A stretch of DNA of 64,000 nt, from contig KB722765.1 in NCBI GenBank assembly GCA_000349905.1, positions 85,200-149,199 on the forward strand, in the 5' to 3' direction. The notes below the pieces were generated by a model. The model ran no database searches. It was not told where the DNA came from and worked only from the letters and a program-made list of their open reading frames with translations. Positions within the stretch are counted from its first letter, which is position 1; each line of letters starts with the position of its first letter. Source of the DNA: Volvariella volvacea V23 (lineage: Eukaryota; Basidiomycota; Agaricomycetes; Agaricales; Pluteaceae). Shown one piece after another: positions 32,246-53,204 of this stretch. A program made the position numbers and the translations under genes.

Positions 32246-33259
32246 CGTGAACGTACCGGCCCAGCTCACAAGGTCTCGTGAGCGTGCGGTTTCCTTCGTT
32301 CACGCCCACCTCCTGGACACGCTGCGGAGGTGATGGTACGGGAAAAATGGCCGCACAGCTACACTGTGTGTCGGTGGTGCGCCATATTCAATCCTTTTCG
32401 CATCATCGTGGAAGCCTGCATATATGGGATAGCCCGAGTATCGTCAGGGGAGCCAACCGTCAAGGGTATCCAAAGGGGGGTTGTATCAAAACGCACGAGC
32501 ACTAGAATGGTAAAAGGGGGACAACGTGGGTTGACGAGGACACGGCCAAGCTTGACTCCATCCTAGTCCCAGGCTCGCTCACAGACGGCACTGCTGCACA
32601 TGCAGTGCCAGACGAGGACCGTAAGACGCTTGCCAGGCGAGGTGGGAGTGGGGAGTGGTGGGTGTGAGACGGGGTGTTGATGTCTGGAGGATAGGAGTAA
32701 GAAAAGGCGGTTGGGGTATCGGTGTGGTGATGGGGGATTTATACGCAGGCTTGGGAGAAGCCGGTGGGCGTGCATAGCGAGGTGGGTGTCACGGCTTCTC
32801 GTCGATGCACACCCCAACGGACGAGGGACGGTGTGAGGATAACGATAGATCTCGCTTTGTGACGTCGTCTTGACCAACACTGTTGTTAGCGCGCGTATAT
32901 CGGATCGCCTTGAGGCGTAGCGCCATCACAGATGCGCTTGACATCCGTCGTTCCGAACACCTCGCTCAGCTCACAACGCGTGCATTCAACGATGGACCCG
33001 AGATAGATGGTTATAGCACGACGTCAGTCAACTCTAAGACAATGACACGCGCTGGACGAGGAGCTTCGTTGACTCGCTGCCACCAAGAGTTGGCATGCTG
33101 ACGTTAGATTCTGATGGCCAGCACGGAAGCTCCTTTCTTATTCGCCTCCTAGAGGCGTGCTCTAACGTATTGAAGTATATAAACTCGTCGCCCCTGCTCT
33201 TCTCTCCTCATCCCTCTCGCACCCTCTCGCGATTGCTTTGCGTCTATATCCTAGCTGGC
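32246..33259. other. Intergenic upstream of DUF2235 gene 1
   Basis: About 1 kb without a supported gene. It ends in the promoter of the DUF2235 gene (TATATAAA at 33176). Confidence 0.45.
33176..33183 (+). promoter_or_regulatory. TATA box of DUF2235 gene 1
   Basis: TATATAAA lies 77-84 nt upstream of the ATG at 33260 and precedes a pyrimidine-rich leader. Confidence 0.55.
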
Positions 33260-35569
33260 ATGGCTTCGAGAAATGGGACAGCTCGTGCGAGCGCACAGTC
33301 CCCCACTTCGAATGGGACGGCAGAGCACCTTGATGCCACTGTGGCGACTTCTATTCCTCCTGTGCACGAAAACCGCACGCTCGTCCTCTGCTTTGACGGG
33401 ACAGGCGACCAGTGAGTCCGCCAGCTGGCCACCGAAGGCTCGACTGACGGTTTGCAGGTTCGATGCAGATGTAAGTCCATCCACGTCTCGCCTCCCGGCG
33501 TGCTGAAGATCACCCAAGAACTCGAACATCGTCGAGTTCTTCTCGGCGCTCAAAAAGGACGACAGGACGGAGCAGATGGTGTACTACCAAGTGAGCCGCG
33601 TTCCGTCCGGGGTGCTTCTGGACATGCCCACATCGTGACTTTGACAGGCGGGCATCGGGACGTGGACGTCTCCGCAAATTGCCACTCCCATGGCAGCTTC
33701 GATATCCAAGGTACGGCACACGCGCCGCTCATCCGGTTGTGGTCACGAAGCGTCCGTCTGCAGTCCCTGGACGAAGCCATCGCCTGGAACCTCGACGCAC
33801 ACGTCATGGGTGACTCGCCTGTCCTTTTGTGCGATCTGCTGATTGACTGGCTGCGACAGATGGGTACGAGTTTTTGATGCAGAACTGTGCGTGGCTTTCT
33901 TGCGAGTCGGGCTGTCGACTTATGTTCCCCAGATATCGCCGGGGATCGGATTTGCCTCTTCGGTGAGCTTCTCTCCATTCGCGGCTCGTAGCATCTCCAA
34001 CCTTCGTTCAGGCTTCTCTCGTGGCGCATACACCGCCAGCAGGCAAGTTCGTTGCTCTGTCCTTTGTATCCCGGATCGCTGAGATTTGGGTGCCCAGTCT
34101 CGCAGGAATGATCCACAAGGTGGGTCTGTTGCCTGCATGCAACCACCAGCAGGTCCCTTTTGCGTACAAGATGTACACGCGCACGGACGAAACGGGATGG
34201 GAACAGTCCAATCTGTTCAAGAAGACGTTCTCTGTTGATGTTGACATCGAGTTTGTTGGACTATGGCAAGTCTAATTGACCCGCTTCTGTTCCCATTGGA
34301 CCTGATGGCCTTTACCAACAGGGACACCGTCAACTCTGTGGGCCTCATCCCCCGCCGTCTCCCGTTCACCACGTCCAACACCATCGTCAAGACCTTCCGC
34401 CATGCTCTCGCCCTCGACGAGCGCCGTGCGAAATTCAAGCCCAAACACTGGAGACACCGCAAGCCCAAGGAGGCGATGATGAGCATCACGGATCAGCACA
34501 TCGAGCAGCTCAAGAAGGACAAGGAGAAGAAGCGGAACCAGAAGGATAAGGACCACCACCCGCATCGGCAGAATACGCTCAAGGCGATGGAGATGAGGTA
34601 TAGGAGGGATCCGACCGAGCCGACTGATGTCAAGGAGGTGCGGTCCTCCTGTTTTCGTGGGGCATACAGGGATCGCTCATGCACATGACAGGTTTGGTTC
34701 GCTGGATGCCACTGCGGTACGTACAGCACTCCCCCGGTCACCCTGTCCTGACGCCCGTCCTCAATCGCCAGACGTCGGCGGTGGTTCCGGTACGTACCTC
34801 CGTTGCCACACTGCATTCCCCCGCCCACTCCTCGCGCACAACAGTCCCGAACCGCACCAAAAACAACCTGGCGCGGATCCCGCTCCGGTGGATGATCCGC
34901 GAATGCTTCCGCACCGCGACGGGGATCATGTTCGACCCCGACTCGCTCCGCAAGCTCGGCCTCAGCCCGGACTCGCTCTACCCCGTCGTCCTCGAGCGGC
35001 CGGCCGCGCTCCCCGTCAGACCCCACCAATACCTCGTCACCATCGACGAGGCAAAGAAGACTCTTGCAGAGGAGGAAGCGCTGGCTAAAGCCGAGCGCGA
35101 GCGGCCAAACTACAGCTCGGGCGACAGCAGCAGCGCACTCGCACCCGTCAACCCGTTCCAGACGGAAGAAGAGTGCGACCTGCTCGACGCGCTGTCGCCC
35201 ATCTACGACCAGCTCTCGCTCAACCGGTTCTGGTGGATCCTGGAGATCATCCCGATGCGGGTGAAGGAGCAGAACGAGGTCGCGCTCGGGTGGAGGGACC
35301 GGTATTTCTGGTGGGTCCCGAGGCCGAGGCTGCCTCGTTGGCTGGGCGGGCGTGGGCGTGGTGCGGAAGAGTATCATGAGCATGAGGATGCGTCGAAGCC
35401 GAGGTTCGAGGTCAACTGGGGGAGGGCGAGGAAGATCCCGAAGAAGAAGAAGGATGGGGTGTATATACATAGGACGGTGGACACGAGGATGAAGGCGAGT
35501 TATAGGGATGAACGAAAGTACGTCCCGAGGGCGGAGTTTAAGGGCAAGCATGTCATCTGGGTGGATTGA
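33260..35569 (+). CDS. DUF2235 (Tle1-like) alpha/beta hydrolase-domain protein, copy 1
   Basis: Predicted 561-aa protein with the DUF2235 fold, shared with type VI secretion phospholipase effectors of the Tle1 group; the fungal function is unknown. Thirteen exons: 33260-33411, 33458-33470, 33519-33590, 33648-33710, 33764-33809, 33860-33886, 33933-33962, 34012-34042, 34098-34265, 34322-34637, 34692-34716, 34772-34789, 34845-35569 (1686 nt). Motifs: LVLCFDGTGDQFD (oxyanion/DGT region, ~41-53), GIGTW, AGDRICLFGFSRGAYTA (GxSxG nucleophile elbow, ~135-143), HKVGLLPACN, WDTVNSVG and CHCDVGGG (catalytic Asp region, ~312-319). A Lys/His-rich insertion (~250-275) is copy specific. Exon 2 is only 13 nt and exon 12 only 18 nt. 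Introns 8 and 9 use GC donors. No signal peptide is seen. Confidence 0.88.
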
Positions 35570-35908
35570 GTGCGTGCGCGTGTGTTCCAGCTTTGGATGT
35601 ATAGCACCTTTAGCTCAACTCTTGTCTATTCATTCGAGTACCAATCTACGATGCTAAATGCAACGCAACCCATGGACCCGTGACTTGGCTGTTCCTGCCA
35701 CCGACCATATCCTGTCCCAATTGCGAGGCGCAATCACATTTCTCTGGTTCTTCGTTCACACCTACATTTTTTTGTGGCGCCAACGGAAAGTGACGACTGC
35801 CAATGGTTGGCTACTTGTAGGCTAGGAACCAGGCATATTCCTCCAACTTGGATATATTATGTAATCATTTGGCCGAGTGGCACAACGACTTGGATTATTA
35901 CCTCCACC
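35570..35908. other. Short intergenic upstream of the Crinkler-like gene
   Basis: 3' flank of DUF2235 gene 1 and promoter region of the next gene. The open frame of the Crinkler-like gene extends upstream to 35774, but the extension has no conserved character. Confidence 0.5.
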
Positions 35909-37969
35909 ATGGCCTCTTGGACCCGCAACCAGGCATTCACGGTTGCTCTCAATATCTTTTTCCTTAATGACGCAAACTCCCAGCATCAAGTTGTAGCATT
36001 AACAGATCTACCCAAGCTGGATGTAGAGGATTACATGCGCATTCAAGATCTTTGCCTTCCAGTCGACCGGCTAGTGGCAAAGAAATTCAAGTTCAAGGTT
36101 GACACCGAGAATTTGGATTTCTTCAAGGTGTGTCGTAATTTCCTTGCTTATATCTGCTATAAGGCTGAACGCCGCTCAGCCCAAGCAAGCCATTACTCTT
36201 GACGATGCCAAAGAATGGGCTATGGCACACATGCACACAGACCTTACAACCGTTACGCGGAGACTGCAACCCGCTATGAAGCTCTGCCATGCTCTCGATC
36301 TGTCGACTATTGGCGATGACTATGTCGACTTGATCGTCTGTGGCGAGGCTCGAGACGACAGTGGGACTGACGAAGAGGCAGACACTGTAACAGACTTGCC
36401 CATGTTCGCGGGCTATAAAAGTGCGTTTCATCTAATCTCGCGATTAAGGCTCTTAACAGCCAAATAGGATACATTACACTCCTCAATAATGTCAAGAATT
36501 TGACACCATCCAGAGTATCCAAAGGGCGTATACCGCTGCAGAGGAGCATCAGTACCGTCATCTATGATGGGTCTTTTGTGTTGGGTATGGATGGAACACC
36601 TGCCATCGAGACAATGGCGCAACCTATTGAGGTTTTCTACCCCCCTTTTGGACAAGTGGCGAGAATGTTGGAGGACGCCGAGTTCAAGCCCGATGTGGAT
36701 GCTCTGAATCTAGTCGCCCAGTTGATGTCAGAAGCCGGCAAGATTTCGACGGACCAGGACCACGGGGCGAGATTGCGCGCTCGACTCACCCGGCTCCTTG
36801 GCACGTACATTGGGCAAGTCCAGATATCGACCCATTCCAGCGCTGATGGCCTGGCTTTCACAACCCGTGATGGAGCCCTCGTCCCGCTCCTCGTGGTCGA
36901 GCTCAAACGGGCATTGGGCGAGGGTGGTTGTGACCCTCTTGTCCAAGCGGAATATTCTGTCCTTCAGAGGTGGCATGAAAATCAGGTGAGTGCCATTGAT
37001 ATACGGATTGCCATGCATTTCTCATTTCTCCGCCAGCTGAAATCTCTGCGAGAGAAATGTGCTTGCCCTACCTTCGTCATTGCTGGAGGAGGCCACAATC
37101 TTGCACTTCTTGGCGTTGTTTGGGCGGACAGATTTATCGTACAACGCTTGACAGACATTGTCTCTGTCGCGCAGGCATCGGCATCCACAGACAAGCAAAT
37201 CTATAAGCTTGCGCGCCTTTTCGCCGTCATTCGCAAAGCCGTTCGAGAATTGCGCGAATACTACATAACCATCAGTGCAAAGCGTATTCCTTCCCTGCAG
37301 CCGGACACCCCACACCCCCGGTTCTTCCCATACACCACCAAGTTTCGATGCAGAGAACGAAAGGAAATTATAGAATTCGAGTATAAGCGCCCCATCGATG
37401 ACGACGACTCTCGGAATCTCATCTTTTATGTCGAGACTGTCGAACAACCCGCCCGCCCGATGATAGTCAAGTTCTCGGACCGCTACGGCGACGAAGCTCA
37501 CCAACATCTTGCTGTCGACGGTCGCGCACCAAAGCTTTTTTATTGTGGCCTGCTCGATGGGGACACGGATGTCTTGACCTGTCCGGCTGCTAGGGGGACA
37601 TTTCGCATGGGCGTCGGAGGTCTCTACGAAGGTCCCCTCCACATGATCGTGATGGAATACCTTGATGGGCAGAGCGCACAAGAGATGTCCCACGATAAGT
37701 GGCCCGAAGGTGCATATGAGAACATATTGGCAGCAATTGAGCATCTACATGATGGTGGCTTCGTCTTTGGGGATCTGCGACCGCCAAATGTGGTGTTTGC
37801 CCCAGATGGGACTGCAAAGCTCATCGATTTTGATTGGAGTGGGAAGGAGGGTGAGGTGTTTTACCCATCTGGATTGTCAGAATGCATAGATTGGGCTGAA
37901 GGGGTTAGGTCATTCCATAGAATCGAGAAGAAACATGATCTGGACATGCTCGACAAACACTTCAAATAG
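35909..37969 (+). CDS. Crinkler-like effector: header, PD-(D/E)XK nuclease-like domain and kinase-like domain
   Basis: Predicted ~636-aa protein. Exons: 35909-36127, 36180-36420, 36468-36985, 37037-37969. The last intron (51 nt, GTGAGT...CGCCAG) is in frame, so retention would give 653 aa. The start at 35909 has the context CACCATGG. Residues 1-73 resemble a CRN header (ALNIFFLNDANSQHQV ... VDTENLDFFK), and a splice junction follows immediately. Around residue 270-320, DGALVPLLVVELK then EGGCDPLVQAEYSVLQRW fits a PD-(D/E)XK nuclease core (D...ExK plus a Q-containing helix). The C-terminal third is kinase-like: IVKFSDRYG (Lys), HMIVMEYLDG, FGDLRPPNVVF in the HRD-loop place (~568) and LIDFDWSG in place of DFG. 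This combination matches the nuclease-kinase class of Crinkler-RHS-type effectors. Any role in host cells or genome conflict is inference. Confidence 0.75.
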
Positions 37970-39778
37970 TAGGCTTATAGCATATAAACTTTTAGTACAT
38001 TGGGAGATACCTTGTAAACTAGAGCACATAAGTACCATAGTGAAGCAAAGCAAGCAGCCTTGTGCTGATAATTGTGTTCTGTCCATAGCTAATTGGAATT
38101 GGGAACCTGTCATTATGCCTAATGCTTGCTCAAGCTGGATAAAGAACAATGACTTGATACAACAGGCAAGCTCTGCTATTTTCTTGTTGAGGAAAAAGCA
38201 AATACTCAGATTCTATTCCCAAGTGAAGAATAGTAAGTAAAGGTGTGAGTGAAGAAGAGGCTAGCTTGTATGCTTACCTATTCCCAAGCGAAGAATCTTT
38301 AAAGCTGGGGAATAGGTGGCAAGAGCAGTACGGTATATATACTACTCGAAGATAAATAAAGATAAATAAAGGGATATAATCTCTTGGGTGGAGAGAAGTG
38401 GAGGGTAAGAATGAAAGTAAGAAAGTGGGAGTCCTGAGTGAAGAGTGTAGCGCACAGACCAGGGGGCGCATAAGCTGGGTCGGCATGTATGTGTAAGCCC
38501 ATGTCATGTGCAGTCAATGTGGGAATNNNNNNNNNNNNNNNNNNNNNNNNNNNNNNNNNNNNNNNNNNNNNNNNNNNNNNNNNNNNNNNNNNNNNNNNNN
38601 NNNNNNNNNNNNNNNNNNNNNNNNNNGGGACGGAGTCATATGAGATCATAACTGGTCGTCTGACTTGACACATGTTCATCTAGAACAAGATTGGGTCATC
38701 GGACTCAATACAAAACAAAGGGCATATCATAAATGGGAAGGTAGAGACGGGTAGAGTGGGTATAGGGTACAGGTAAGCGGATGTATGTAGGTAATGGTGA
38801 TGTGTACGAGGGAGAATGGAGTAATACGTATTATGTATTGAAGATATAATGGAAGGGGAGTAATGGAAAAGGGAAAGGAAAAGGAAAATAAAATGATGAA
38901 GATGCTTGGTGGGTGTCAATATGAATGTAAATGCTGGGTGAGCATTTGGTTGGTGTAATGAAGACGCTTGATGGGCATCTGAGTGATGGGCGTTTATGTC
39001 GAGGGCTCTTACGAGCCCTGACATTTCTGCATAAGCAACTCAGAGTGCCAGATAGGATGAATTCTTTTGTACTGGGTGCTACCATCATCATATTTCTCTG
39101 GCACATCTTTGCTGGCACAATCTTTATCTAACATTACAAAAAATGTTACTGGAATAAGGTATTGTTTGAGGTAATAAACTTGGTGTGTGCTTCAGCCAAT
39201 GCATATGATCACCACCCTTTCGCACCGACTCCGACCCCTAACCTGAACATTTTGCACACCAAATCACACAGTTCTTTCATGTGATTTAACGTGCAAAATG
39301 CTGGACGGGGGATGGGGCTTGAAACCAAGTCCGATCCTCGAGCTTTCGGGCTCCTCCTTGGTGGCGACGACCTCTTGCTTTGATGCACTGACCATGTGTT
39401 AAACGAGGAGATTCTCTTTTGCTTCATACAGGTCCTAGCTGGGCTTTGATATCAATTTGTGATGATTGCAAGACTCGGGCATAGAGGGGGAGATAGGAAC
39501 TCGGGCAATGGTAGATTGAAAGCTTCAAGATGCAAGGCGCTGCTATTTAACCACTGTGAGAGCAGCTACAAGTTGTGACAGGCCTTCTCGCCTTGAAAGC
39601 CTATCGGAAATCCGTTTCTGACGCCCAGCGAAGAAGCAGTGTGGTCACGATTTTGAAAAGTTTACGCGCACCCAGATGCTACATGTTCAATTCCTAGAGA
39701 GAGAGGCTGAGTGAAGTTTGAGATATACCCAACAGTCGTGGCGAGTCAAGCTAGTAACGTACGCAGCAGCTTCTATTA
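37970..39778. other. AT-rich intergenic region with assembly gap
   Basis: No supported gene. Low-complexity purine-rich stretches flank the 100-N gap, suggesting a collapsed repeat. A small hairpin (GGGCTC, loop TTAC, GAGCCC) lies near 39003. Confidence 0.45.
38527..38626. other. Assembly gap (100 N)
   Basis: Exactly 100 unknown bases, the conventional placeholder for a scaffold join of unknown length. Anything spanning it cannot be judged. Confidence 0.99.
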
Positions 39779-41188
39779 CTAAATCTCCTCCGAGCGATAC
39801 CGACTTGGTCTCAACCCATACTCGTTATTCGAATAGATATTCAAGTATGTATATGCATCCGTCTTGAACCCAATTGAAACCGGCCCACAAACCCATTTCT
39901 TCAAATCATCCTTAACCCGCCTCACATCCTCTAAATCCAAGTAATCTCTCACATAGACGCATATCACATGTTTCCGCTCCTCCAAACAACCGACCTGGCT
40001 GGTCGACACCTTGGCCTGTCCGAGCTTCCTCCTCAAACAGACATACCGAACCACCTTGCCCCACACGTCATCAACCCGATTAGACTCGGTCATGATCATC
40101 CATTTGCCAACGAGGACGTTGTTGGCCCGTGCAATTTCGTCTATCGCTTGCACCGTCACATACTCCTTTCCCTTCTCGATGAGCGCCTGGAAATTCCTCT
40201 GCAGTCCCTCTACGTCCTTGCCCTGTGTCTCTCCGCCTTCGTATTCAGTCAACCTCTTCAGATCTTGGTCTGAATACCGGTCTATGGCGATCCAGGCACA
40301 GTATGTGCTAGGTGTCCTGCTAGGAGGCCAGCGATCCAGGAATCTGCTTATCCTGTCTTCGGTACTGGTTTCCATGCGCCAGTGGGTGAGTATCCAATCT
40401 CCATCTGAGCCATGATACAGTGGCCTAGTCGGAGGGTCGACCCATTGTGGTTGTGTATCTCTATCTCCGTGTGACGGCGTTGGCATTGACTGCGATCCTT
40501 GGGCAGCAGGCAAGTCGCGTTGACGTCGATGAGGAGGAATGTATTGTCCAGGAGGCATTAGTGGCTTAGATCCCTGAGCACTTGTTCTTACTGGCAGGCA
40601 GTGAGTGTGAGAAACCTCATGATAGGGAGGGACTTTAGCTGACATCACGTGCTGGCGCTTTGCCACTGACACTAATTGAACATCAATTGGAGGTGTACAC
40701 GCAGTGTGACGCTCAGAACATGCTGCTTGACCATAATCAGCTAGATTGGATAGCAGCAGAGTTCTGTTGCCGTAGAAATGAATGGTTGGAATCGTTTCAT
40801 CCGATCCCATCCTAGGAGTACCCATGGAGGAAGGTAGTAATAGGTAGGCTCCCGTATGGAAGTGGACGAACAACCTTGGTGATAGAGGGAATACATTTGG
40901 GTCGTTATTAAGAATTAACAGCCAGGGCTTAACCTCTTTCCCCAGGTCGGAAGCCATATAGCCTCTTATTTGTCCAAAAACGGTACGCATGGATCTAACA
41001 ATGTACCTCGTAGTCTCTTTAGCCCCAAACAGCCTTCCAACACGATCAGAAGCTTGGATACATTCGAGTCCCGGAGTTTGGTGCAGAGGGTAGTGAGTTG
41101 CTCTTTGAAGAGGTTTTGGGATGTTTATCAGGATTGACGCGAGAGTCTTGTAATGCCGTTCGATGACGGCACAGGAGTTCCCGTGCAT
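39779..41188 (-). CDS. DUF1917 (Bles03/UPF0696-like) protein, N-terminal extent uncertain
   Basis: A 469-codon uninterrupted frame. The C-terminal half has the DUF1917 pattern: GDWILTHWRMETSTEDRISR, STYCAWIAIDRYSDQDL, LVGKWMIMTESNRVDDVW, KVSTS, HVICVYVRDYLDLEDVRRV and GFKTDAYTYLNIYSNNEYGL. A natural start is the internal Met at 40558 (MPPGQYIPPHRRQRD), giving 259 aa; such PPHRR-type N-termini are common in fungal proteins. The preceding 210 codons are open and contain protein-like stretches (KPWLLILNNDPNVFPLSPR) but match nothing I recognise. The function of DUF1917 is poorly known; a eIF4E-like fold has been suggested for the family. A frameshifted fragment of the same gene lies at 50628-51040. 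Confidence 0.75.
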   Translation of the reverse strand: MHGNSCAVIERHYKTLASILINIPKPLQRATHYPLHQTPGLECIQASDRVGRLFGAKETTRYIVRSMRTVFGQIRGYMASDLGKEVKPWLLILNNDPNVFPLSPRLFVHFHTGAYLLLPSSMGTPRMGSDETIPTIHFYGNRTLLLSNLADYGQAACSERHTACTPPIDVQLVSVAKRQHVMSAKVPPYHEVSHTHCLPVRTSAQGSKPLMPPGQYIPPHRRQRDLPAAQGSQSMPTPSHGDRDTQPQWVDPPTRPLYHGSDGDWILTHWRMETSTEDRISRFLDRWPPSRTPSTYCAWIAIDRYSDQDLKRLTEYEGGETQGKDVEGLQRNFQALIEKGKEYVTVQAIDEIARANNVLVGKWMIMTESNRVDDVWGKVVRYVCLRRKLGQAKVSTSQVGCLEERKHVICVYVRDYLDLEDVRRVKDDLKKWVCGPVSIGFKTDAYTYLNIYSNNEYGLRPSRYRSEEI

Positions 41189-43272
41189 TGTGCGAGACAG
41201 ACAGGAACAACTTGTGACGCGGACAATTTTCTATATCGCTACCAACAAAGTCCCAGGTTTTTTACTCGGCGATACAACTGAGGGCCTCAACTATGCTCTC
41301 GTGTGCATCCATAAGGAGTGCACCCAAAAAGGTACTACTCAACTCTTCCGTCTAGATGCTAATGAGTTATTAGGATGTGGTGCGCGGAAGGAAGAAAGAC
41401 GACCTTAAGGCCGGCAGGGGGATTTGAGAAGAATTCTATTGCAGGCTCATAACCCAGCGCCAGGATATACATACTTCTTCTGCGCCATTAAAACATACAC
41501 TCAAAGTAAACGCCGGGGATGGGCGGTGAGTGCACGTTCGTATGCTTTCAATATAGTCCTACTGACCATGTGGCGCAGCTCATAGGCTAGTCGAGACTTG
41601 CTGATGCCCGTTGCCTGATTGGTAGGGATAACCCTGTCGTGGTGTTCATTGTCTCCCAGAGACGTTCACAAACGCATAGCCCAGCAATAAAACAATGCCT
41701 CCTTGACAATGACACCAAAAGCCCCTTTTCAAGCATGCGTGTGTTGTATACCCATGATGAGGATTAACCACAGTGCATTCTCAGCTTGTTATCATTTGAG
41801 ACGCTGTGGCGCATGTACCTAGGTGCAGGGTCTGATACTGTTCACAATTTCAGTATTTACATGATGGGCGAAATGGAGTGTACCTCACCAGTGAATGCAG
41901 CCAAGAGATATGCGGCCAAGTTCCCTTTGTGCATCGCTGCGAGGACCTTCAACTCGTCATGATTTTTGGTAGACCGACATTGATCCTTGTTGCCATTCAG
42001 AAAAATAGCGCTGAGAAGTTGTGGCGGAATGGGGGATGCATAATGGGTAAGGAGTTCCGGTATCGTACTCACAGCAGCGGGGCTGCACGTTTGTAGCATC
42101 TCAATCTGTGCGCTGAGGTCCTGGTCCGCGACCGCGTCTCCCGAGAAAGCGACATTGTCAAGCCATTCAACCAGTTCACTGGAAGCGGTTTGCATAACGA
42201 CCCAAATCGAGTGCGGCGTAGTGGTAGTAGGGGCACTAAGGATTGATTATCTGCATTGCTCTCCAGCGTACACATGCACCGCTTGAATATTGTGATTCCA
42301 TCCATCATCGGTTGTATAGGATTGTGGGCGCAGAGAGTTGTGAATGCATGGTCTATCCCATATTAGGCCAAGATATGCAACGCACCGGTGAATGCACTAA
42401 GGATACTGTGACCGCCATGACCCATGTTAGTGAGGGTATCCAGCGATCCTTCGTCCTGTGCGCCTCACGTTGTTGTCCTTGGCACCTTTGAAGACAGGCC
42501 CTGAAACTTTGGGCGGAATGTGTCTCCAGGCAGGTCCACAGAAGCGACTCCTTGCAGTTCCTGTCTCCGTGATTATCAAGCACCTCTTGGGAGGTACATC
42601 TTCAGCGTCTTTAGGGTCTATTACCTAGTGGACGTTTGCAAGGGGTTCCATTTTGATAGTCATATGGGGCCCAAAGGCAAAGCTAAATGATAGTTACGCT
42701 GGCCATGTATCCGGTGTGTCGCCGCTTAAACTCAATCACGGAAACTCACAACCAGATGAGTGATATTCGATTCCTCCATAGAACGTAAATGAGAGCAGTG
42801 GGGGTTGATCATATAGCTTTATTCTAGATGACTATATGCGCTAACTTTACCGTAAACTATAGAATACAATTTTCAACGTTCTAAGGGATGAAATCAAGCT
42901 AGGCAAACTGCGATATCGATGGTAAGTGTGGTAAGCATTAGATTAGCCCTCTAAGTTGACTGGATGACCGCGATGTAGCGAGGTGACCAATATGCAAAAA
43001 TGGGGATTAGTGGTGTAAGCGACAGTGCAGCAGTTTGATAGCGATGAAAGGAGTGAGGGGGTTAAATTAAGGGGTCAAGATAAGGGGATGGCGGTAGTGA
43101 GGGGCGATGAGGAGTCACAACGTCAAAAACACAGGGGATCAGAGAGAACGTAGGCACCCTGGTATAGAGCGCCACTTCTGATAGACCTTACCGACAGACG
43201 TTGCCAGCTTCTCCCCGCTCCTTTTTCCAACCGTATTACATGTCATGATTGCAAGATTGACATGCATATTGT
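41189..43272. other. Intergenic with possible gene remnants
   Basis: About 2.1 kb without a confident gene. A plus-strand frame at 41163-41408 and minus-strand exon-like pieces at 41857-42195 and ~42360-42550 have some protein character but cannot be joined into a coherent model. Confidence 0.4.
41857..42195 (-). CDS. Possible exon or gene remnant, unrecognised
   Basis: A 112-codon minus-strand frame with plausible protein composition: SSELVEWLDNVAFSGDAV, IEMLQTCSPAA and FLNGNKDQCRSTKNHDELK followed by VLAAMHKGNLAAYLLAAFTG. It runs into a GT at the AFTG codons that could be a splice donor. A second minus-strand piece near 42395-42440 also ends SAFTG with a following GT. I do not recognise the family and could not extend it into neighbouring exons. 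It may be the decayed residue of a gene. Confidence 0.25.
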   Translation of the reverse strand: MQTASSELVEWLDNVAFSGDAVADQDLSAQIEMLQTCSPAAVSTIPELLTHYASPIPPQLLSAIFLNGNKDQCRSTKNHDELKVLAAMHKGNLAAYLLAAFTGEVHSISPIM

Positions 43273-46200
43273 TTACGGCAACTTCTCGTGGAGCCTCTTC
43301 ACAAACTCCTCATTATCACTAAACACCTCGACGAGCACCTCCTTCACATTCTCCACGTACACAAACCTAATGCCCTCCTTGACGCTGTCCGGGACATTAG
43401 CCTCGATGTCGGCTCTGTTCGCCGCAGGTGCGATGATAGTTTTGATCCCAGCTCTGTGAGCAGCGAGGATCTTCTCTTTCAGACCGCCGACGGGGAGAAC
43501 TTGACCTACGAGGGAAATTTCACCAGTCATGGCTACAAAAGTAAATTAGCAAACCCGAAGCTCAAGTCCTAACTCAATTCACGCACCAATATCAGGACTA
43601 ATCCTGACACCCTTGAACAGCGAAACAAACGCCGACAACAGAGCTGTTCCCGCACTCGGGCCTTCCTTTCCGATGCTTCCTTCGGGCATATGAACGTGGA
43701 CATCCCTCTCGGTCAAGAACTGCTCGTCGGCAGATGAAGTGATGCCCAAGTCGTAGGCGTGGCTCTTCACCCATGACAAGCCGATTTGGGCGCTCTCTCG
43801 GATGACTTCGCCCAGTTTGCCGGTTAGTTGGAGTCCTCCTTTGCCGGGCATGCTCTGAACGACGCGCGTAAGTCAAGAATGCGAGCGTGGCTTGTAGGAC
43901 TGAGACTTACCATAGCTTCGACGGGCATAACAGCGCCACTGCCATTACCCAAGTACCCCAACCCGGTGCTGACACCAGGCGGCGGCGGCTGAACGTACAT
44001 CCTATCCTTCTGGTAAACAGGAGGTCCAACGTAGTCCTTCAGGTTTTCTCCCGTGATCCGGATATGAACGCTCGAGGGTATAGGCATCGGTTGACGCTGT
44101 TGGGTTGTGACAGATTTGCGGTGAGGGTCGGCAGCTTCAGAAGCGGCTTCCGTCGTTGTAGAGGTAGCGGTGGGATCGGGGTTCATAACGGATTCGTTAG
44201 GCAGAGGCTCTTGTGATTCAACAGTTGAGGTGGTGGCGTCTGATGCTGGTGCATCAGTCGTCGCCGTACTTGCAGGATCGGGTGTCGCAGCGGCAGCCGG
44301 GGTAGGTTCAGGGAAAGTCTCTTCGCCTAGATCTTGAACGAGTTTCAGGGCAGCTTTACGATAGATCTACCGAAATCAAATGAGCACGTTGTGACGTTAC
44401 GAAAGAGAATACCGCCCACCTTGTCAATGTGCTTCTTCAAATTCCTAACACCACTCTCTCGGCAATAATACTTGATCAATAGATCGACCGCATCCCTCTC
44501 AAGCTGCACATCCGCGTCTTTCAATCCCGATGCGTCCTTAGCTTGAGGACCTAGGTACTTTTCTGCAATCATGGCCTTTTCTTCCGACACGTATCCGCTG
44601 ACTTCGAGGACTTCCATACGGTCGAGGAGCGGGGCGGGTATCGTTTCCAGATTGTTGGCTGCGAAGGAGAGATTGAATTAATACGCTATCAAGTTGACTT
44701 GCAGAAAAGGAAAGTGACTTGCCTGTACAGACAAAGAGAACGCGAGACAGATCGACGGGAACGTCCATGCTAATGAATTAATTAATATCAAATCAATTAA
44801 ATAAAATGAGAAACTAGACGCACTAATGGTCCAAAAAGCTGTTATTTTGCTCAGGATCCAGCATTTCCAACAAGGCGCTAGCGGGGTCTCCATTGATCCC
44901 ACGTCCAATCTTGTCAACTTCGTCGATCAGCACCAAAGGATTTTCGGTCCCAACGCGTTTAAGAGCTTGAATAATTTTGCCGGGCAGTGCTCTAAAAAAA
45001 GACAAGAAGCGATTAATACCCATCGAGAACAAACAAATTACACCTACCCAACATAGGTCCTCCTGTGCCCCTTAATCTCCGCGACGTCCGTCAATCCTCC
45101 GACCGAAAACCTGAAGAACTGTCGTCCCAACGCTCTGGCAATACTCTTCCCGATACTCGTCTTGCCAACACCAGGGGGTCCGGCTAGACAAATGATCTTG
45201 CCTTCGACGGTTCCGCGGAGTTTGCCAACAGCCAGGAATTCGAGGATGCGATCTTTGACGTCTCGCAGACCGTAGTGGTCTTCGTCCAGGACGCGCTGGG
45301 CGTGAGTGATCGAGTAGTTTTCAGGAGAATGTTGGCCCCATGGGATCTATCACGCACGAACAAGTCAGCCAAACGAAGACAGAGAAAGAGCTGAATCCTA
45401 CCTGCGTCAACCAATCCAAGTAGTTCCTAGTGACGTTCGCCTCGCTAGCCGCGGGCTCCAAGCTCGCCAACTTGTTGATTTCCTCCTCAAACACCCGTCT
45501 AACGCCCTCCGGCATCTTCAATGCCGCAGCTCTCTCCTTGAACTTTTCAATCAACTTGTCCTTCCCGTCGCTCTCCATGCCCAACTCCTTCTTGATCCCT
45601 TTCAACTGCTCCATAAGGTAGTACTCTCGCTGTCGCTTGGCTATCTTGGAATCGACGTCGCGGGCGAGTTTACTTTGCAGCTGAGCGTTGATCAGTTCCT
45701 TCTTGAGGACCAAAAGAGCTTTGCGGAGCCGGTCGTCGATCGCCAAAGCCTCGAGCACATCCTGCAACTCTTGAACCTCTCCCGTAGACACCGCAGCCGC
45801 AAAATCAGCCAATTTGTCGGGCTCATCGAAAACGTTGGCAGCGACTTGATTGATTGAGAAGTTGGTGATTTGGTCGCGGAAGAGTGGGTTGAGTTGAGCG
45901 ATGTCCTTGAAGACAGAGACGATTTCGGACATGAAGGCGCGGATGTACTGGTCGTCCTTGTTGTAGGGCAGAGTAGTCAGGTTCTCGATGTTGACGATAG
46001 AGATGTCGTGGTTGTGCAGGAAGGAGGTTTGAACGGGGCCTATTATCGTGCATGAGACGAGGAAGAGCAATCGTGAAGTGTGAACTTACCATTGGGGATG
46101 GGTGCGACCTGACCTTCCGGCGGTGGAGTAGCCGGTGGAGTAGGTAGCCCATCTGCACTAGTCTCCGCCTCAACATTCGCCGTAGACACAGCTCCAGCCT

Positions 46201-47029
46201 TGACGAGTTCCGTAATCTTAATCCTCCTGTGCGGGTAGAGTACAGCCGTCAAACCTTCCTCCACGTCGCCAGGCGACGCGCCAGGACTAGGAGCAGCGTT
46301 GAACACACTCGTAATCTGCGCAAAAACTCCTACAGGATGGACTTGATCCAAATCGGTGATAACATCCGAATCGGTATTTTCGTCTTTGAGCAGGAATGCA
46401 CCGAGGTAAGGCTGGCCGCGCTTCATCATTTCTTTGACAGCTGCGACGACGGAGGGGTTGCGGATAACGACTGCCTTGTAGAAACCGGGGAAGAGAGGAC
46501 GACGGGCGATGGGTAGAGCCAAAACCTGGGGGTAGTTTTCGGGTACGGACTGCTTAGCTATTGAACCGGGTGCGGAGGAAGGAGGTGGGGGAGGCGGCGA
46601 TGACGAAGGCGGTGGGGAGGAAGAATCGGAAGGGGAGGATGGTGGATCGTTGGAATGGGTCCCTCCATCGCTCGAACTTGACGAGGAGTGTGCTGATGAA
46701 GGAGGTACGGAGGAGTCCTCGTCATGCCCTGCTGGCCGACTGGGTTCCTCTGAGGACGACGGGGGTTTGGCTGGATCATCGGGAAGATCCTCCGACGAGG
46801 CCTCTTCACCGTCTTCCTTCTGACCTGGCTTCCCGTTGACCCAGCGGGGCGCCTGATACAGCGAGCTTGACGGTCTAGCAAGGCTCCTCGCTGACGAGGC
46901 AAACGCAGCACGCGGTATTACATCTGCTATACGCCTCCTGTGGGTGGTTGTCGAAGTGGTGGTAGCGAGACTATGCCATATGCGAGGACGAGCGACAGTG
47001 TTGCGTAGGCCTAGAGTCAGCCAGTTCAT
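43273..47029 (-). CDS. PIM1: Mitochondrial ATP-dependent Lon protease (PIM1-type)
   Basis: Predicted 1104-aa AAA+ serine protease of the mitochondrial matrix that degrades damaged proteins. Exons: 47029-46090, 46039-45402, 45346-45048, 44991-44824, 44769-44723, 44658-44420, 44366-43911, 43854-43587, 43532-43273 (3315 nt). The basic, Ser/Thr/Arg-rich N-terminus ([18 protein letters not shown]) looks like a mitochondrial presequence. A Pro/Ser-rich linker (~60-155) precedes the LON N-domain ([16 protein letters not shown]). Walker [14 protein letters not shown] (~582), Walker [10 protein letters not shown] (~645). The AAA+ and protease domains are separated by a Thr/Ala/Pro-rich insertion of roughly 80 aa in exon 7. 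Catalytic Ser is in GPSAGTAL (~996) and Lys in [10 protein letters not shown] (~1038). Intron 5 has a GC donor. Divergently paired with DUF2235 gene 2. Confidence 0.97.
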
Positions 47030-47451
47030 GGAGAGTCAGCGGTAGAGATGAGGCAAGTCGACGCAACCAGAGCCGTTGAGCAGGTCGTGGGCTTGGTCGA
47101 GGTCGTGTTGCGCGATGAGCAGTAAGCAAAGTCGCAAGCCGGGGCTTTCCAACTTTTTCGGCCTGATGACGAAATGCATGACAAAGCCCATTAGGTAAGA
47201 TTTCCCACGCCCATTTGCTCGTCGGCTTGGCCTCGACGGCGAAACGACTGGCAGACGACCGAACTCTGCTTGGCCACCATTGCAATTAGGAGTAGACATA
47301 TAGGGCGCCACCATTGCAATTAGGAGTAGACATATAGGGCGTCTGATTGAGGAGCCCAATGCTCCTATCGTCGTCTCCTGACTTAAGCATTCAATGTGTC
47401 AATGGGCTGTATATCTAGGACGTCTGTGTGCCCGAATACCAGCGTCCTCTA
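47030..47451. promoter_or_regulatory. Putative bidirectional promoter between Lon and DUF2235 gene 2
   Basis: The ATGs of the divergent genes are 422 bp apart, so both core promoters must lie here unless transcripts overlap. The interval contains a perfect 34-bp tandem duplication at 47273-47340. No clear TATA box was found. Confidence 0.45.
47273..47340. repeat. Perfect 34-bp tandem duplication in shared promoter
   Basis: Two identical adjacent 34-bp units, 47273-47306 and 47307-47340, each starting GCCACCATTGCAATTAGG and ending CATATAGGGC. No mismatch between the units, so the duplication is recent or selected. Confidence 0.95.
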
Positions 47452-49683
47452 ATGCAAAAAGCTGTCCCAGCCCCAGCGAGTACTCCAAGTACGATCCCCA
47501 CTACTATCCCTACCAAACACGAGGCACGTACATTGGTACTATGCTTCGATGGAACTAGCAACGAGTCAGATTGCTTTGACTTCCTCGTCGATTCTATTGC
47601 TAACCGTACGTCCGCAGGTTTGGCTCCAAGGTAACTCGCACATACACACGGAGGCCGCGTTCCACTCGAACCAACCAATACGATAGAACTCGAACGTCAT
47701 AGACTTCTTGCATGCCCTCAAGAAGGACGACAAATCAATGCAGATGGTCTATTATCAGGTAACCTCTGTTTCCATTATCCTCGTCGTGGAGGGCACCAAC
47801 CATGATTTGTCTAGGCTGGACTTGGGACATGGTCCCCTCGGAAGTTCGTGACAAGAATGGCTAGAAAAGTATCCAAGGTGCAATGTCAGCTACTCACATA
47901 ACGACTTGATTGCTTATTCTCTTCAGGCCTTGGACGAGATGTTTGCTTGGAACTTAGATGCGCATATAATAGGTATGGGACTCATATAAATTACTCTGCT
48001 GCATGCTTACCCCACTAGATGGATACAAGTTCCTCATGGAGCACTGTACGTCCCACAGACTGCTCTCAGGAGATTGCCGCTGATTCTCCTGTAGATATCG
48101 CAGGCGATCGCATATGTCTCTTTGGTCGGTCCACTTTCTAACCTCAAAATTGTCCTCTGACAGTATAGCGTCTCCTCAGGTTTCTCTCGAGGCGCATACA
48201 CGGCTATGTGGTACGTCAAGCCTGCATGAAAACAGTTCTCGTACTTGCCCACTGATTATCAGCCAGTCTCGCCGGTATGATACACAAAGTAGGCCTTCTT
48301 CCAGCAAGCAACGCAGAGCAAGTCCCATTTGCCTACAAAATGTATACCCGCGCAGGCCAAGAAGGGTGGGACGAATCAAACCTCTTCAAGGAAACCTTTT
48401 CCGTCGATGTCGATATCGAGTTTATTGGCTTATGGTCCGTCGCGACCATCGCTCCTTACATACCCCAACACAAGATACCGACCTATGCTTCCTCATTACA
48501 GGGACAACGTCAATTCAGTGGGCTTCATCCCACGTCGTCTACCATTCACCCAGTCAAACACTATCGTACACAACTTCCGCCACGCGATATCGCTAGATGA
48601 GCGCCGTGCAAAGTTCAAAGCCCAACAGTGGATTCGGACGAGCGAAAAAGGGGCTCTCATGAGTGTTACCGAGCAGAGAATTCAGGAAGCCATCGAAAGC
48701 GGGAACAATGGTAGGAATGCCGATGCAGGTGGGAGCGGAAGTGCTAACGGGGCCAATAATGGGGCTGGAAGAGCGAAGAATATATTGAGTAATGTGAAGG
48801 ATACGTTGCATAACCTTAGAATTAAAGATCTGGAAGAGAGGTATTCCAAGGATCCGAAAGTACCTACTGACGTATTGGAGGTTTGTGCCGTCTCTACACC
48901 TTCAAAGGACGATCCGAGCTTATATGTTTTGACGTTTTCAGGTTTGGTTTTCTGGGTCTCATAGCGGTAAGTCCTTGATCCATCAAGATATCGTAAACTC
49001 GCTCACATCTTCATGCTAGACGTCGGAGGCGGTAGTGGTGCGCACACACTTTCCTCCCACACAACACCATCTAACTTCAAACAGTCCCAACAGGAACAGC
49101 CCACAGCCTCGCACGCATCCCCCTCCGCTGGATGATCCGCGAATGCTTCAGAACAAAGACAGGAATCATGTTCAACACCGAATCTCTCCGCCGCCTCGGC
49201 TTCGCGAACCCAGAGTCCTTACTACAAGAACCAGGGCATACACGCCCCAAGAGGCTCGATCCTGACCCAAACCTTGATTTTATAAGAGGCAAAGACGAAG
49301 ATCCCTCCCCTCGTGTATTGCTGGATCCAGAGCAAGGCCAAGGCTCGCCTTTCCTGACCGAGGAAGAGCACGAGCTCCAAGACGCCCTCTCCCCGATCCA
49401 CGATCAACTTTCTATCAGGCGCCTATGGTGGATCCTCGAGCTCATCCCACTACGGATTAAAGTCATAAACGATCTGGCCCCAGACGAGGCGCCGCAGTTG
49501 AAAGCTAATTTGGGACAGGGAAGGGAGATTCCGGATCCGACAAAGAAGGATTTGTATGTGCACAGGAGCGTTCTGACGAGGATGAATGCGAAGGACGCGA
49601 CGGGGAAGGAGGGAGCGTATGTGCCAAAGGCAAAGTTTGATAAGGGTGATGTAAAAAAGTGGATTGACGATCCTGATAATTAG
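47452..49683 (+). CDS. DUF2235 (Tle1-like) alpha/beta hydrolase-domain protein, copy 2
   Basis: Predicted 527-aa paralog of the gene at 33260-35569. Thirteen exons: 47452-47564, 47618-47630, 47687-47758, 47815-47877, 47927-47972, 48019-48045, 48095-48124, 48180-48210, 48267-48434, 48502-48880, 48942-48966, 49020-49037, 49085-49683 (1584 nt). Exons 2-9, 11 and 12 have the same lengths as in copy 1, including the 13-nt and 18-nt exons. Motifs: LVLCFDGTSNEFG, AGLGTW, AGDRICLFGFSRGAYTA (nucleophile ~122-130), HKVGLLPASN, WDNVNSVGFIPRR, then SHSDVGGG (~321-327), where copy 1 has CHCDVGGG. A Gly/Asn/Ala-rich insertion replaces the Lys-rich one of copy 1. The first ATG in frame is 47452; an upstream start by an extra exon is possible. 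Confidence 0.87.
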
Positions 49684-50627
49684 GTATTTGCGAGTGAAGT
49701 ACCGGATGAGCTCGCATGGCGGTGGTGTTGATTAATCTCTACCGATCTTGTTGCAACTTAATTTACACGAAGGAGACAACCCCTTCGCGAGCATTGTACG
49801 TCCAAGGAGTCAACGTTGATGTCAAGGAGAGGACGTGTATTAGTGAGGCGTCCAGCTGTAGAGAAAAACAAACGGATACTCAATCGCATCAAAATATTTT
49901 GAACAAGAACGCACTTTGGCGTTGGTATTCTAGATGTCCCTCGTCACCGACAGGTTATTCTTCTTCGTCCGTACTTATCGGTATCTTCCTTCGTGGGTCT
50001 TCCTGGGATGAGATCAGATAAAAAATTCCAACAAACCATTTCTACAGTAGATGAAGCTCTCTTGATATCTAACCTTGCTTATCATGATGGACCAGTATAC
50101 TTTGAGTGTTAAACTGCACGTACACCTCCCAATGACGCTCATTCACTGGTAGTTCTGGATCACCGCCATCCCGCCTGAAAGGCGATTTGAGGTAGCAACA
50201 CTCAGACTATTCGGTGATGGTGGTATAAACCAGGTTTTCGCAGCTTGGTCTCAAAGGTTGTTTTAGAACTTAACTGAGGGGAGGACGCGAAGGGCTTCTC
50301 AGAAGTGGGTGTATCCCATCATCTGCAAATCCCAATGGGCATCGTAAACGGCTATGTCTATTCAAAGACACCATCTGAACCGATTTTCTCAGTCGCCGCT
50401 GCGTATGCTTTGACAGGAGTAGGCATTTGGTGTTCGAGCCATTATATCAATGCCTTGACCATTCTACTTAAGCAATTGGTTTTTATGGGCATTGTATGTG
50501 ACCAGGGTGTATACAGTAGCATTTACCCCAGAACATTCCCGACTCATGAAATGGATTCGGCTGCAGACGCAGACAGTAGGTTTTTCGAGGTAAAGAATAA
50601 GGTACCTTATAAAGCTCGGCCAGTCCT
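49684..50627. other. Intergenic, no gene recognised
   Basis: About 0.9 kb between DUF2235 gene 2 and the DUF1917 fragment. No supported coding sequence. Confidence 0.45.
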
Positions 50628-51040
50628 GTTGGTCAGCATGCTAAAGAAGCTTTTCGACGACGACATCGAGAAGGGAAAGAATTATGTGATGGTGCAAGCG
50701 ATAGACGAAATTGCACGGGGGCCAAAAACGTCCTCGTTGGCAAATGGATGATTATGGCCGAGTCTAATCGAGTTGACGAGGTGTGGGAGAAGGTGGTTCG
50801 GTATATCTGTTCGAGGAGAAAGTTCGGACAGGCCAAGGTGTCGACCAGCCAGGTCGGTTGTTTGGAGGAGCGGAAACATATGATATGCGCCTATGTGAGA
50901 GATTACTTGGATTTAGAGGATGTGAGGCGGGTTAAGGATGATTTGAAGGAATGGGTTTGTGGGCCGGTTTCAATTGGGTTCAAGACGGATGCATATACAT
51001 ACTTGAATATCTATTCGAATAACGAGTATGGGTTGAGAGA
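50628..51040 (+). pseudogene. DUF1917 gene fragment, frameshifted
   Basis: Matches an internal C-terminal part of the DUF1917 ORF at 39779-41188, in opposite orientation. It starts near IEKGKNYVMVQAIDEIARG; then the aligned bases CGGGGGCCAAAAAC replace CGGGCCAACAAC, a net 2-base gain that breaks the frame. It resumes as MIMAESNRVDEVWEKV through GFKTDAYTYLNIYSNNEYGL. Homology stops at both ends (after NNEYGL), so neither terminus is present. Identity after the frameshift is very high, pointing to a recent partial duplication. Confidence 0.85.
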
Positions 51041-51211
51041 CCAGTATTTTCGCCATCAGTGCAAGCCAAAGAGCTATCCTAGCCCAGGTCTCAGCTGGAA
51101 GTTTTGATTCAATATCGGAGTCGTTCGAAGGACAAGTCCGCTATGGCTTACGTGCGGGTTAACAGAACCGTACGATGCTTCCATTAACATTACGTTGATA
51201 TTTTTGGGTAA

Positions 51212-52449
51212 TCATATGAGCATTTCTTCTACATCTCGCAACCAATTCTCTTCAATCCGCTCGCGTGCGTCTCCCCATACTCGCTGAACTTCAACTCGTG
51301 TGTCCTTATCTAATAGGCGCCTTAAATTAGGGTGCCTCTCCACTGTCAGTTCCACTTCCTGTTCTGTTTCAAACGTAAGTCTCTTCAGCGATTGTGGGAA
51401 TACGCCATTGCATGTCGAAAATGCTAACAAGTAGTCTTTTTCATCGTCGTCGTCATCACTATCGGATTCTGTGAAACCGGAATTCTCTTCCTGCACATCG
51501 GCATTGGTACTATCCCTGTGTATAGGTGTGGTAAGGTCGGATCCCTTACACTCGTATAAGTGGTTCGTAGGATGGCCCAGTGCCCGCAAAAAGTATCGGG
51601 GAAATTCATTGGAAACTATAGCATCTTCGTAAAGCGGGATGGTAAGGTACTGAAGTTGAGGAAATGCCGTAGTAAGGTAAGGCAGGAAGCCAGCTGGAAA
51701 TGGTCCTGGCGAACGACTGAAATGGACATGAGTTATGCTGGGGAAGTGAGTGGTGGCTTTTGGTGCTTTGAGCTCGGGATTGAACAATCCGTGAAGCGAA
51801 ACTCGAGAGAGGTTGGGATAGGGTGAGTGTAGTAGACCCTGTGCGTCACGAACAGGCTCTGTGGCAGCGTTCAAGAAATAACAAGATTGAATGGCTTGTG
51901 AATCTCACCCTCAAGGTCGTCTGGATCCACGAGAGGGAAAAGAACGTGCAAGCGATTGAAGTAGAGTTTGACGGTCAAACTCTTCAAATGACCTGAGAGG
52001 AGCTGGACGAGATCATATAACGGATTCAAAACACAACCCCTGTCTTCGAAATGTCCTCCAATGATTATCTGATCCTCCCCATCATCGCTATCAGAGTCCT
52101 CAGTCCAAGCGTTCCATATATCCACCAACAGATGTCGAACAACGAAGTTAAGAGATTGACCATGACCCTCGGAGTCCATTGCGTCCTCCGCTTTTCGTCG
52201 CTGTACCAAGTCCTCGAAGTCGCAGAGTTCGTACCAGCTCGTGAGGTGAACGGTTTGGTAAGTATATGGTTTAGAGAGGACGTTGAAAGATTTGGAGACA
52301 AGTAAAAGCGCTACACCGGTTTTCCCGCCATCTGTGCAGGCTAGGGAAAAGATTCTGGACGAGATTTCGACTGGGAGCTTTGATATTACGTCGAGGTTCT
52401 TCATGTGTGCAATAGCGGCAGTTGAGGATGGTGACCACCATGTATTCAT
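51212..52449 (-). CDS. F-box-like domain protein
   Basis: Predicted 397-aa protein. Exons 52449-51883 and 51838-51212, with a 44-nt intron starting GTTATT and ending GCACAG. If that intron is not real, the gene carries a frameshift at 51871-51883. The N-terminal DVISKLPVEISSRIFSLAC (~19-37) is an F-box-like motif (LPxEIxxxIF), the segment that binds Skp1 in SCF ubiquitin ligases. The rest has loose leucine-rich-repeat character (LSRVSLHGL, FPQLQYLTIPL, SLKRLTFETEQE), as in many agaricomycete F-box proteins that recruit unknown substrates. Acidic runs (DSDSDDGED and ESDSDDDDDEKD) are present. An alternative start is the Met at 52404 (MKNLDVISKLP). Confidence 0.7.
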
Positions 52450-53204
52450 GAATCGGGCGAGACAATGCCCTGCCTCGTCGATGGTAATTTGTGGTTGATT
52501 GCGGTGATACCTCTTTCAGACTCCGATCTTCCATTTCAAAGACATACTGGCTGGCTATGTTGCCCCAAGTGGATGCTATGTGCGCCTAATTATTACAGGA
52601 ACGAGCATACAAAGTGCCCAGAGTTTAACGCCAAGATACTTAACCACCACCTGGCGAAAACGCGCTCCTATTCTCATATGCTCAAGTCAAGGCCTTTCAT
52701 AGTGCGGGACAAGATTTGCTCTACATTCGTAGCTCTTCGAGAGGATTATCGCCCTCAGGTGGTCTCATTCGCGGACCACAGTCCACGCCTGCTGTTGCTC
52801 GGCCAACAAAGTACCCAAGGACTTGCAGGACAAGTTAGTCGGTGGGTTAAACATTGAATATTGAAGTATAGTCATCATTAAGAGCAGTGAAGGGACGAGG
52901 ATATTACCAATGAATTTGCAGTCCGTTTCAAGTTGGCACAAAGAATCGGTTAAAAACCAGAGAAAAGATTGCTCAGTCAGTGAGACTAACCCTAGCATAT
53001 AAATTTCAGCTAACAAGTACGATTATAGCGGTACATCGGGAATAGCAAATTCATTCGACTTGGTCCATTTTCCATATGCGTTTCGTACATTCCCATTGAT
53101 TTCCCTGGAACATCAAGGGGTTAGATACCAAGTCGATGCTACAAGCAGGCCATGAGAGAAAACACACCTTCACATTACGACAAGTGAAAAATTTTTTGAG
53201 ATAG
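52450..53204. other. Intergenic between F-box gene and decarboxylase gene
   Basis: Upstream region of the F-box-like gene and 3' flank of the decarboxylase gene. The plus-strand frame 52465-52857 shows no recognisable motif. Confidence 0.45.

Follow-up and report, generated by a model that had tools for sequence, protein, structure and literature searches.

What does the gene at positions 35909..37969 on the plus strand of a 64,000-nucleotide stretch of contig KB722765.1 from the mushroom Volvariella volvacea V23 encode? (This whole stretch is hereafter the window, and all gene positions are numbered within it.) I consider it likely that the product is an intact, divergent Crinkler-RHS (CR/CRN) protein, in which a docking header is followed by an active PD-(D/E)XK nuclease and then by its controller, a short RIO/Bud32-like kinase. 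The gene structure, the conservation of catalytic residues in both domains, and the presence in the genome of other copies of the module linked to Pfam Crinkler headers were observed directly, and the nuclease and kinase folds are shown by predicted models. The three-part architecture of the original prediction is supported by models, conservation, and the other copies in the genome, least firmly for the header.

It was found that the gene is complete from ATG through stop, with four exons encoding 636 amino acid residues. The coordinates, length, motifs, and splice junctions proposed earlier were all present on re-examination. The parts of the gene are as follows.

35909..36127, plus strand: exon 1, 73 residues; first part of a Crinkler-like, probably ubiquitin-like header
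36128..36179, plus strand: intron 1, 52 nucleotides, GT..AG
36180..36420, plus strand: exon 2; remaining header to about VDLIVCGEA, plus linker
36421..36467, plus strand: intron 2, 47 nucleotides, GT..AG
36468..36985, plus strand: exon 3; predicted helical N-terminal cap and catalytic half of the PD-(D/E)XK domain
36986..37036, plus strand: intron 3, 51 nucleotides, GT..AG, in frame, 17 stop-free codons
37037..37969, plus strand: exon 4; final predicted strands of the nuclease domain, long linking helix, kinase
about 37187-37255, plus strand: long linking helix, in exon 4
about 37328-37966, plus strand: kinase region, in exon 4

Since intron 3 is in frame, the mechanical open reading frame (ORF) 36419-37969 runs through it. 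Searching with this ORF turned up 54 proteins with E values of 0.001 or lower, the top one covering 97% of the ORF with 54% identity. These relatives are cited below by identifiers such as P0001. For the alignments, 14 and 33 of the 54 were picked by length and spread; the 33-row set excludes this gene. Of the 14 aligned relatives, 13 lack the 17 residues of intron 3, and P0009 has an unrelated stretch there. When each exon was searched alone, P0002 of Tetrapyrgos nigripes was collinear with exons 1-4 (residues 7-76, 77-155, 157-332, and 335-641).

Are both catalytic domains intact? The sites in question are listed below, with the counts in aligned relatives for the kinase.

36845-36847, plus strand: nuclease Asp, exon 3
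36899-36901, plus strand: nuclease Glu, exon 3
36905-36907, plus strand: nuclease Lys, exon 3
36944-36946, plus strand: nuclease Gln, exon 3
37469..37471, plus strand: ATP-binding lysine of the kinase (IVKF), kept in 33/33
37766..37789, plus strand: kinase catalytic loop FGDLRPPN, Asp in 30/33, Asn in 31/33
37823..37837, plus strand: metal-binding motif IDFDW, replacing DFG, first Asp in 30/33

The four nuclease residues are present in this gene and in 25-30 of 34 rows. The conserved lysine, the Asp and Asn of the GDLR loop, and the Asp of IDFDW are functional equivalents of HRD and DFG in the kinase. It had been noted that the HRD and DFG letters are lacking, which is true. The doubt about activity drawn from this is weakened, because the catalytic residues are conserved, and the idea that the kinase is probably dead was rejected since those residues are kept. 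The kinase resembles RIO and Bud32 in catalytic motifs only. The RIO1 model gave 19.0 bits on exon 4, below its cut-off of 22, and the Bud32 models gave 15.9-28.5 bits on the ORF against cut-offs of 125-246. FunK1 (PF17667) had no match in this gene at E<=1 and matched one of 34 rows at E 0.093. Almost all PADLOC and NCBIfam matches fall on the shared kinase loop, and those from NCBIfam are far below their cut-offs.

The nuclease domain probably cuts nucleic acid. Searched by itself against Pfam, the nuclease region had no match at E up to 10, a PDB sequence search with the nuclease piece gave five chains at E 1.1-1.5, which is chance, and Foldseek against viral structures gave none below E 0.001. 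In the structure comparison, the best neighbours of the domain were mitoribosomal chains (the rows name mitoribosome entries and chains only), which I take to be mL37/mL65. If that identity holds, the animal proteins are ribosomal and have no kinase, unlike this gene, and no sequence match between them and the nuclease domain was found. A search of the same genome with PF07147, labelled PDCD9 in the output and presumably the mL37/mL65 family, gave no match; its controls were silent too, and the search is hence uninformative. The modelled closeness to mL37/mL65 may be the sole lead beyond the described architecture. Could the kinase then be the output, with the nuclease-like domain serving merely as a nucleic-acid-binding or dimerisation scaffold? 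The kinase residues are indeed more conserved than the nuclease ones, and mL37/mL65 are described in excerpts of PMC8998825 as repurposed endonucleases interacting with rRNA. Retention of the nuclease residues argues the other way, as does CRN8, for which the cell death was reported to require the nuclease and not the kinase (excerpts of PMC5289972). I regard a scaffold role as unlikely.

Is the N-terminal part a Crinkler header? It had been proposed that the header ends exactly at the first splice junction. This does not hold, because uninterrupted relatives run through the junction; the header continues to the end marked in exon 2. A blastp comparison of exon 1 with P0002 gave 46% identity over 70 residues. 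Exon 1 matches five and exon 2 four of the 54 relatives, the top match of exon 2 being P0001 at 48%, and the N-termini of P0001-P0004 match exons 1 and 2 at 32-48%. Exon 1 ends with LDFFK, at the strand reading LWK in the Pfam-matching Crinkler headers of the same genome. The literal LxLFLAK motif is absent there. According to excerpts of PMC5289972, CRN N-termini without this motif have been reported; the motif is therefore no defining mark of the wider family. A header profile was made from 21 Crinkler ORFs of the genome, some being one place fetched twice. In a test of nine sequences it gave E values of 1e-5 for P0001, 2e-4 for P0004, 0.03 for P0022, 0.05 for P0020, 0.5 for P0003, and 1.1 for P0002. 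A search of public proteins with P0001 residues 1-150 recovered P0001 alone among 248 candidates; as even P0002 was missed, the test is weak. I take the header, short of proof, as a divergent one that would belong to the true Crinkler headers.

Several observations weigh against the overall interpretation. Neither exon 1 nor exon 2 has a Pfam match, and their scores on the own-genome profile are -0.4 and -0.5 bits, for an E of about 1. Of the headers of six relatives, just two pass, P0001 with 15.5 bits and P0004 with 11.5 bits; P0002 and P0003 reach -0.5 and 0.5 bits. The profile of these six headers that matched Crinkler in a profile-profile comparison (probability 72%, P 3.3e-5, 79 columns; reversed control 0.2%) holds six sequences, with an effective number (Neff) of 2.8. 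The predicted model of P0003 gives the header a strand-strand-helix-strand order at low to middling confidence, with blocks of the predicted local distance difference test (pLDDT) at 49-77. At the nuclease, P0003 has Asn instead of the first Asp, a few relatives lose E or K, and Foldseek alone gave nothing below E 0.001 with the nuclease model (best 0.018). In the genome comparisons described next, five of 11 related loci, including that of this gene, have no Crinkler match upstream, and the absence of Crinkler matches in 14 control genomes is a weak control, as these may be prokaryotes.

Is the same module linked to recognizable Crinkler headers elsewhere? The genome has 27 Pfam Crinkler matches, 21 of them over the cut-off, at 20 places after merging one overlapping pair. 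It also has 16 matches to the ORF, those other than this gene at 27-52% identity, which fall into 11 loci; some are matched through the kinase part only, and five have no nuclease-profile match. At six of the 11, a Crinkler match lies 0.2-1.7 kb upstream on the same strand (five over the cut-off, the one on contig C16 under it). The chance expectation of 0.0014 per locus is rough, because an even spread was assumed while Crinkler headers cluster. Nuclease profile matches were found at three of these six loci. The copy on contig C35 (C35:58575-60574) has the nuclease, middle, and kinase profiles in that order behind a Crinkler header. It pairs with P0029 of V. volvacea WC 439 in a quick kinase-region tree (77% over 221 columns). 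Both have the same nuclease-kinase module as this gene, at 33-34% identity to the ORF. Unlike this gene's, their headers are over the Pfam Crinkler cut-off, and they form a separate branch of the tree.

Two other places in the genome were noticed. One is a local cluster at C14:5502-27231, with nine Crinkler-header matches, six over the cut-off, in about 22 kb. At C28:283500-290000, two Crinkler-header matches lie near an ORF in which a P-loop-like GPPGSGKTTLL, without a Pfam match, was seen by eye; this is perhaps the NTPase class of Crinkler proteins.

May the gene instead encode a housekeeping nuclear enzyme, for example one of DNA repair, with no role in conflict? It is intact and lies among ordinary genes (at 39779-54393 of the window, a Bles03-domain protein, a LON-domain protein in two ORF pieces, and phosphatidylserine decarboxylase), and no repeats of 20 bases or more were found at 33000-41500 around it. 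However, the family is multi-copy and fast-diverging, as the identities of the own-genome matches show, exon 1 has no second match in the genome at E<=1, and the 54 relatives are scattered across species. A housekeeping role seems quite improbable. Transposon cargo was also rejected, given the lack of such repeats and the ordinary genes of the region.

How widely is the family distributed? The 54 matches include proteins of Tetrapyrgos, Stygiomarasmius, Armillaria, Marasmius, Dendrothele, Mycena, Serpula, Hebeloma, and Volvariella. The quick tree has 38 rows (33 of the 54 relatives, this gene, and four own-genome copies). In it, 12 rows form a set that has a Shimodaira-Hasegawa-like approximate likelihood ratio test (SH-aLRT) value of 100 and holds this gene together with Tetrapyrgos, Stygiomarasmius, Marasmius, Armillaria, and Dendrothele. 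The Tetrapyrgos, Stygiomarasmius, Armillaria, and Marasmius proteins P0001-P0008 are in this group; P0001-P0004 have the same header as this gene, whereas the Armillaria models P0005-P0007 (361-366 residues) have none. The long-branch join of the own copy C32:5926 with Lenzites was not used. A profile of the 33 relatives, scored on just the candidates sharing most words, reached E 1e-8 or better for 14 proteins, 12 of which have mushroom names. On plasmids, tblastn gave 13 records; all fell short of 80% query coverage, and every match lay within query 385-484 (kinase). Two proteins of the centipede Strigamia maritima stand at ranks 49 and 54 of the 54 relatives. One of them, P0049, has a similar nuclease-like and kinase part with FGDLRPPN and LIDFDWSG, at 25% identity, and no Crinkler among its precomputed Pfam domains; it may reflect transfer, contamination, or old inheritance.

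The original prediction offered a host-directed effector as one reading. Such a protein would leave the cell by unconventional export and cut or phosphorylate targets in another organism's cells. Nothing points to secretion or a host, although no secretion test was run. The relatives span wood-decay, litter, mycorrhizal, and pathogenic mushrooms, and the closest relative of the C35 paralogue is from V. volvacea, a saprotroph. On the other side, Armillaria holds family members and some Armillaria are root pathogens. Action in plant cells has been reported for oomycete Crinklers and for one from a mycorrhizal fungus (excerpts of PMC5289972 and PMC6131194). Delivery to a host is improbable in my view.

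I favor a kinase-controlled nuclease inside fungal cells because of two sets of reports. In excerpts of PMC5289972, free-living eukaryotes also have Crinklers, and toxicity in Crinkler-RHS proteins is ascribed to the nuclease, with the kinase proposed to regulate it (Zhang et al. 2016, via PMC5289972); in excerpts of PMC9815663, fungal NLR proteins have Crinkler domains at their N-termini. The Crinkler-like header would place or dock the protein, the PD-(D/E)XK nuclease would be the active output, and the short kinase would gate it through phosphorylation or ATP binding. Its place of work would be the fungal cell rather than a plant or animal host, and it would be directed at foreign nuclei, mobile DNA, or damaged self; a self-versus-non-self role is possible. 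If the kinase does switch the nuclease, a proposal standing since 2016 would be answered. Crinklers have been studied mainly as disease effectors. With many Crinklers in this mushroom and a nuclease-kinase family spanning life styles, their role for the fungus itself becomes approachable in a non-pathogen, and one may ask about hyphal fusion, nuclear compatibility, and control of mobile DNA.

Is this, then, a new system? No study of this mushroom nuclease-kinase Crinkler family was found among the matches listed in the open-licence literature. Calling it a poorly described system was nevertheless too strong, since the REase (restriction endonuclease) and kinase class of Crinklers is in print (excerpts of PMC5289972) and accounts for about one-sixth of the C-termini in Crinkler-RHS proteins (Zhang et al. 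2016, via PMC5289972). Two features of Crinkler-RHS proteins were found here: a REase-superfamily PD-(D/E)XK domain in the C-terminal part and a protein kinase coupled to it. As in that class, the nuclease and kinase modules stand behind an N-terminal header, and the genome is likewise rich in Crinkler-header matches. In contrast, the header of this gene is too divergent for the Pfam Crinkler model and has no literal LFLAK motif, and the gene is from a mushroom, not an oomycete. Since the architecture as such has been described, the gene is a divergent addition to a known combination of header, nuclease, and kinase rather than a new system.
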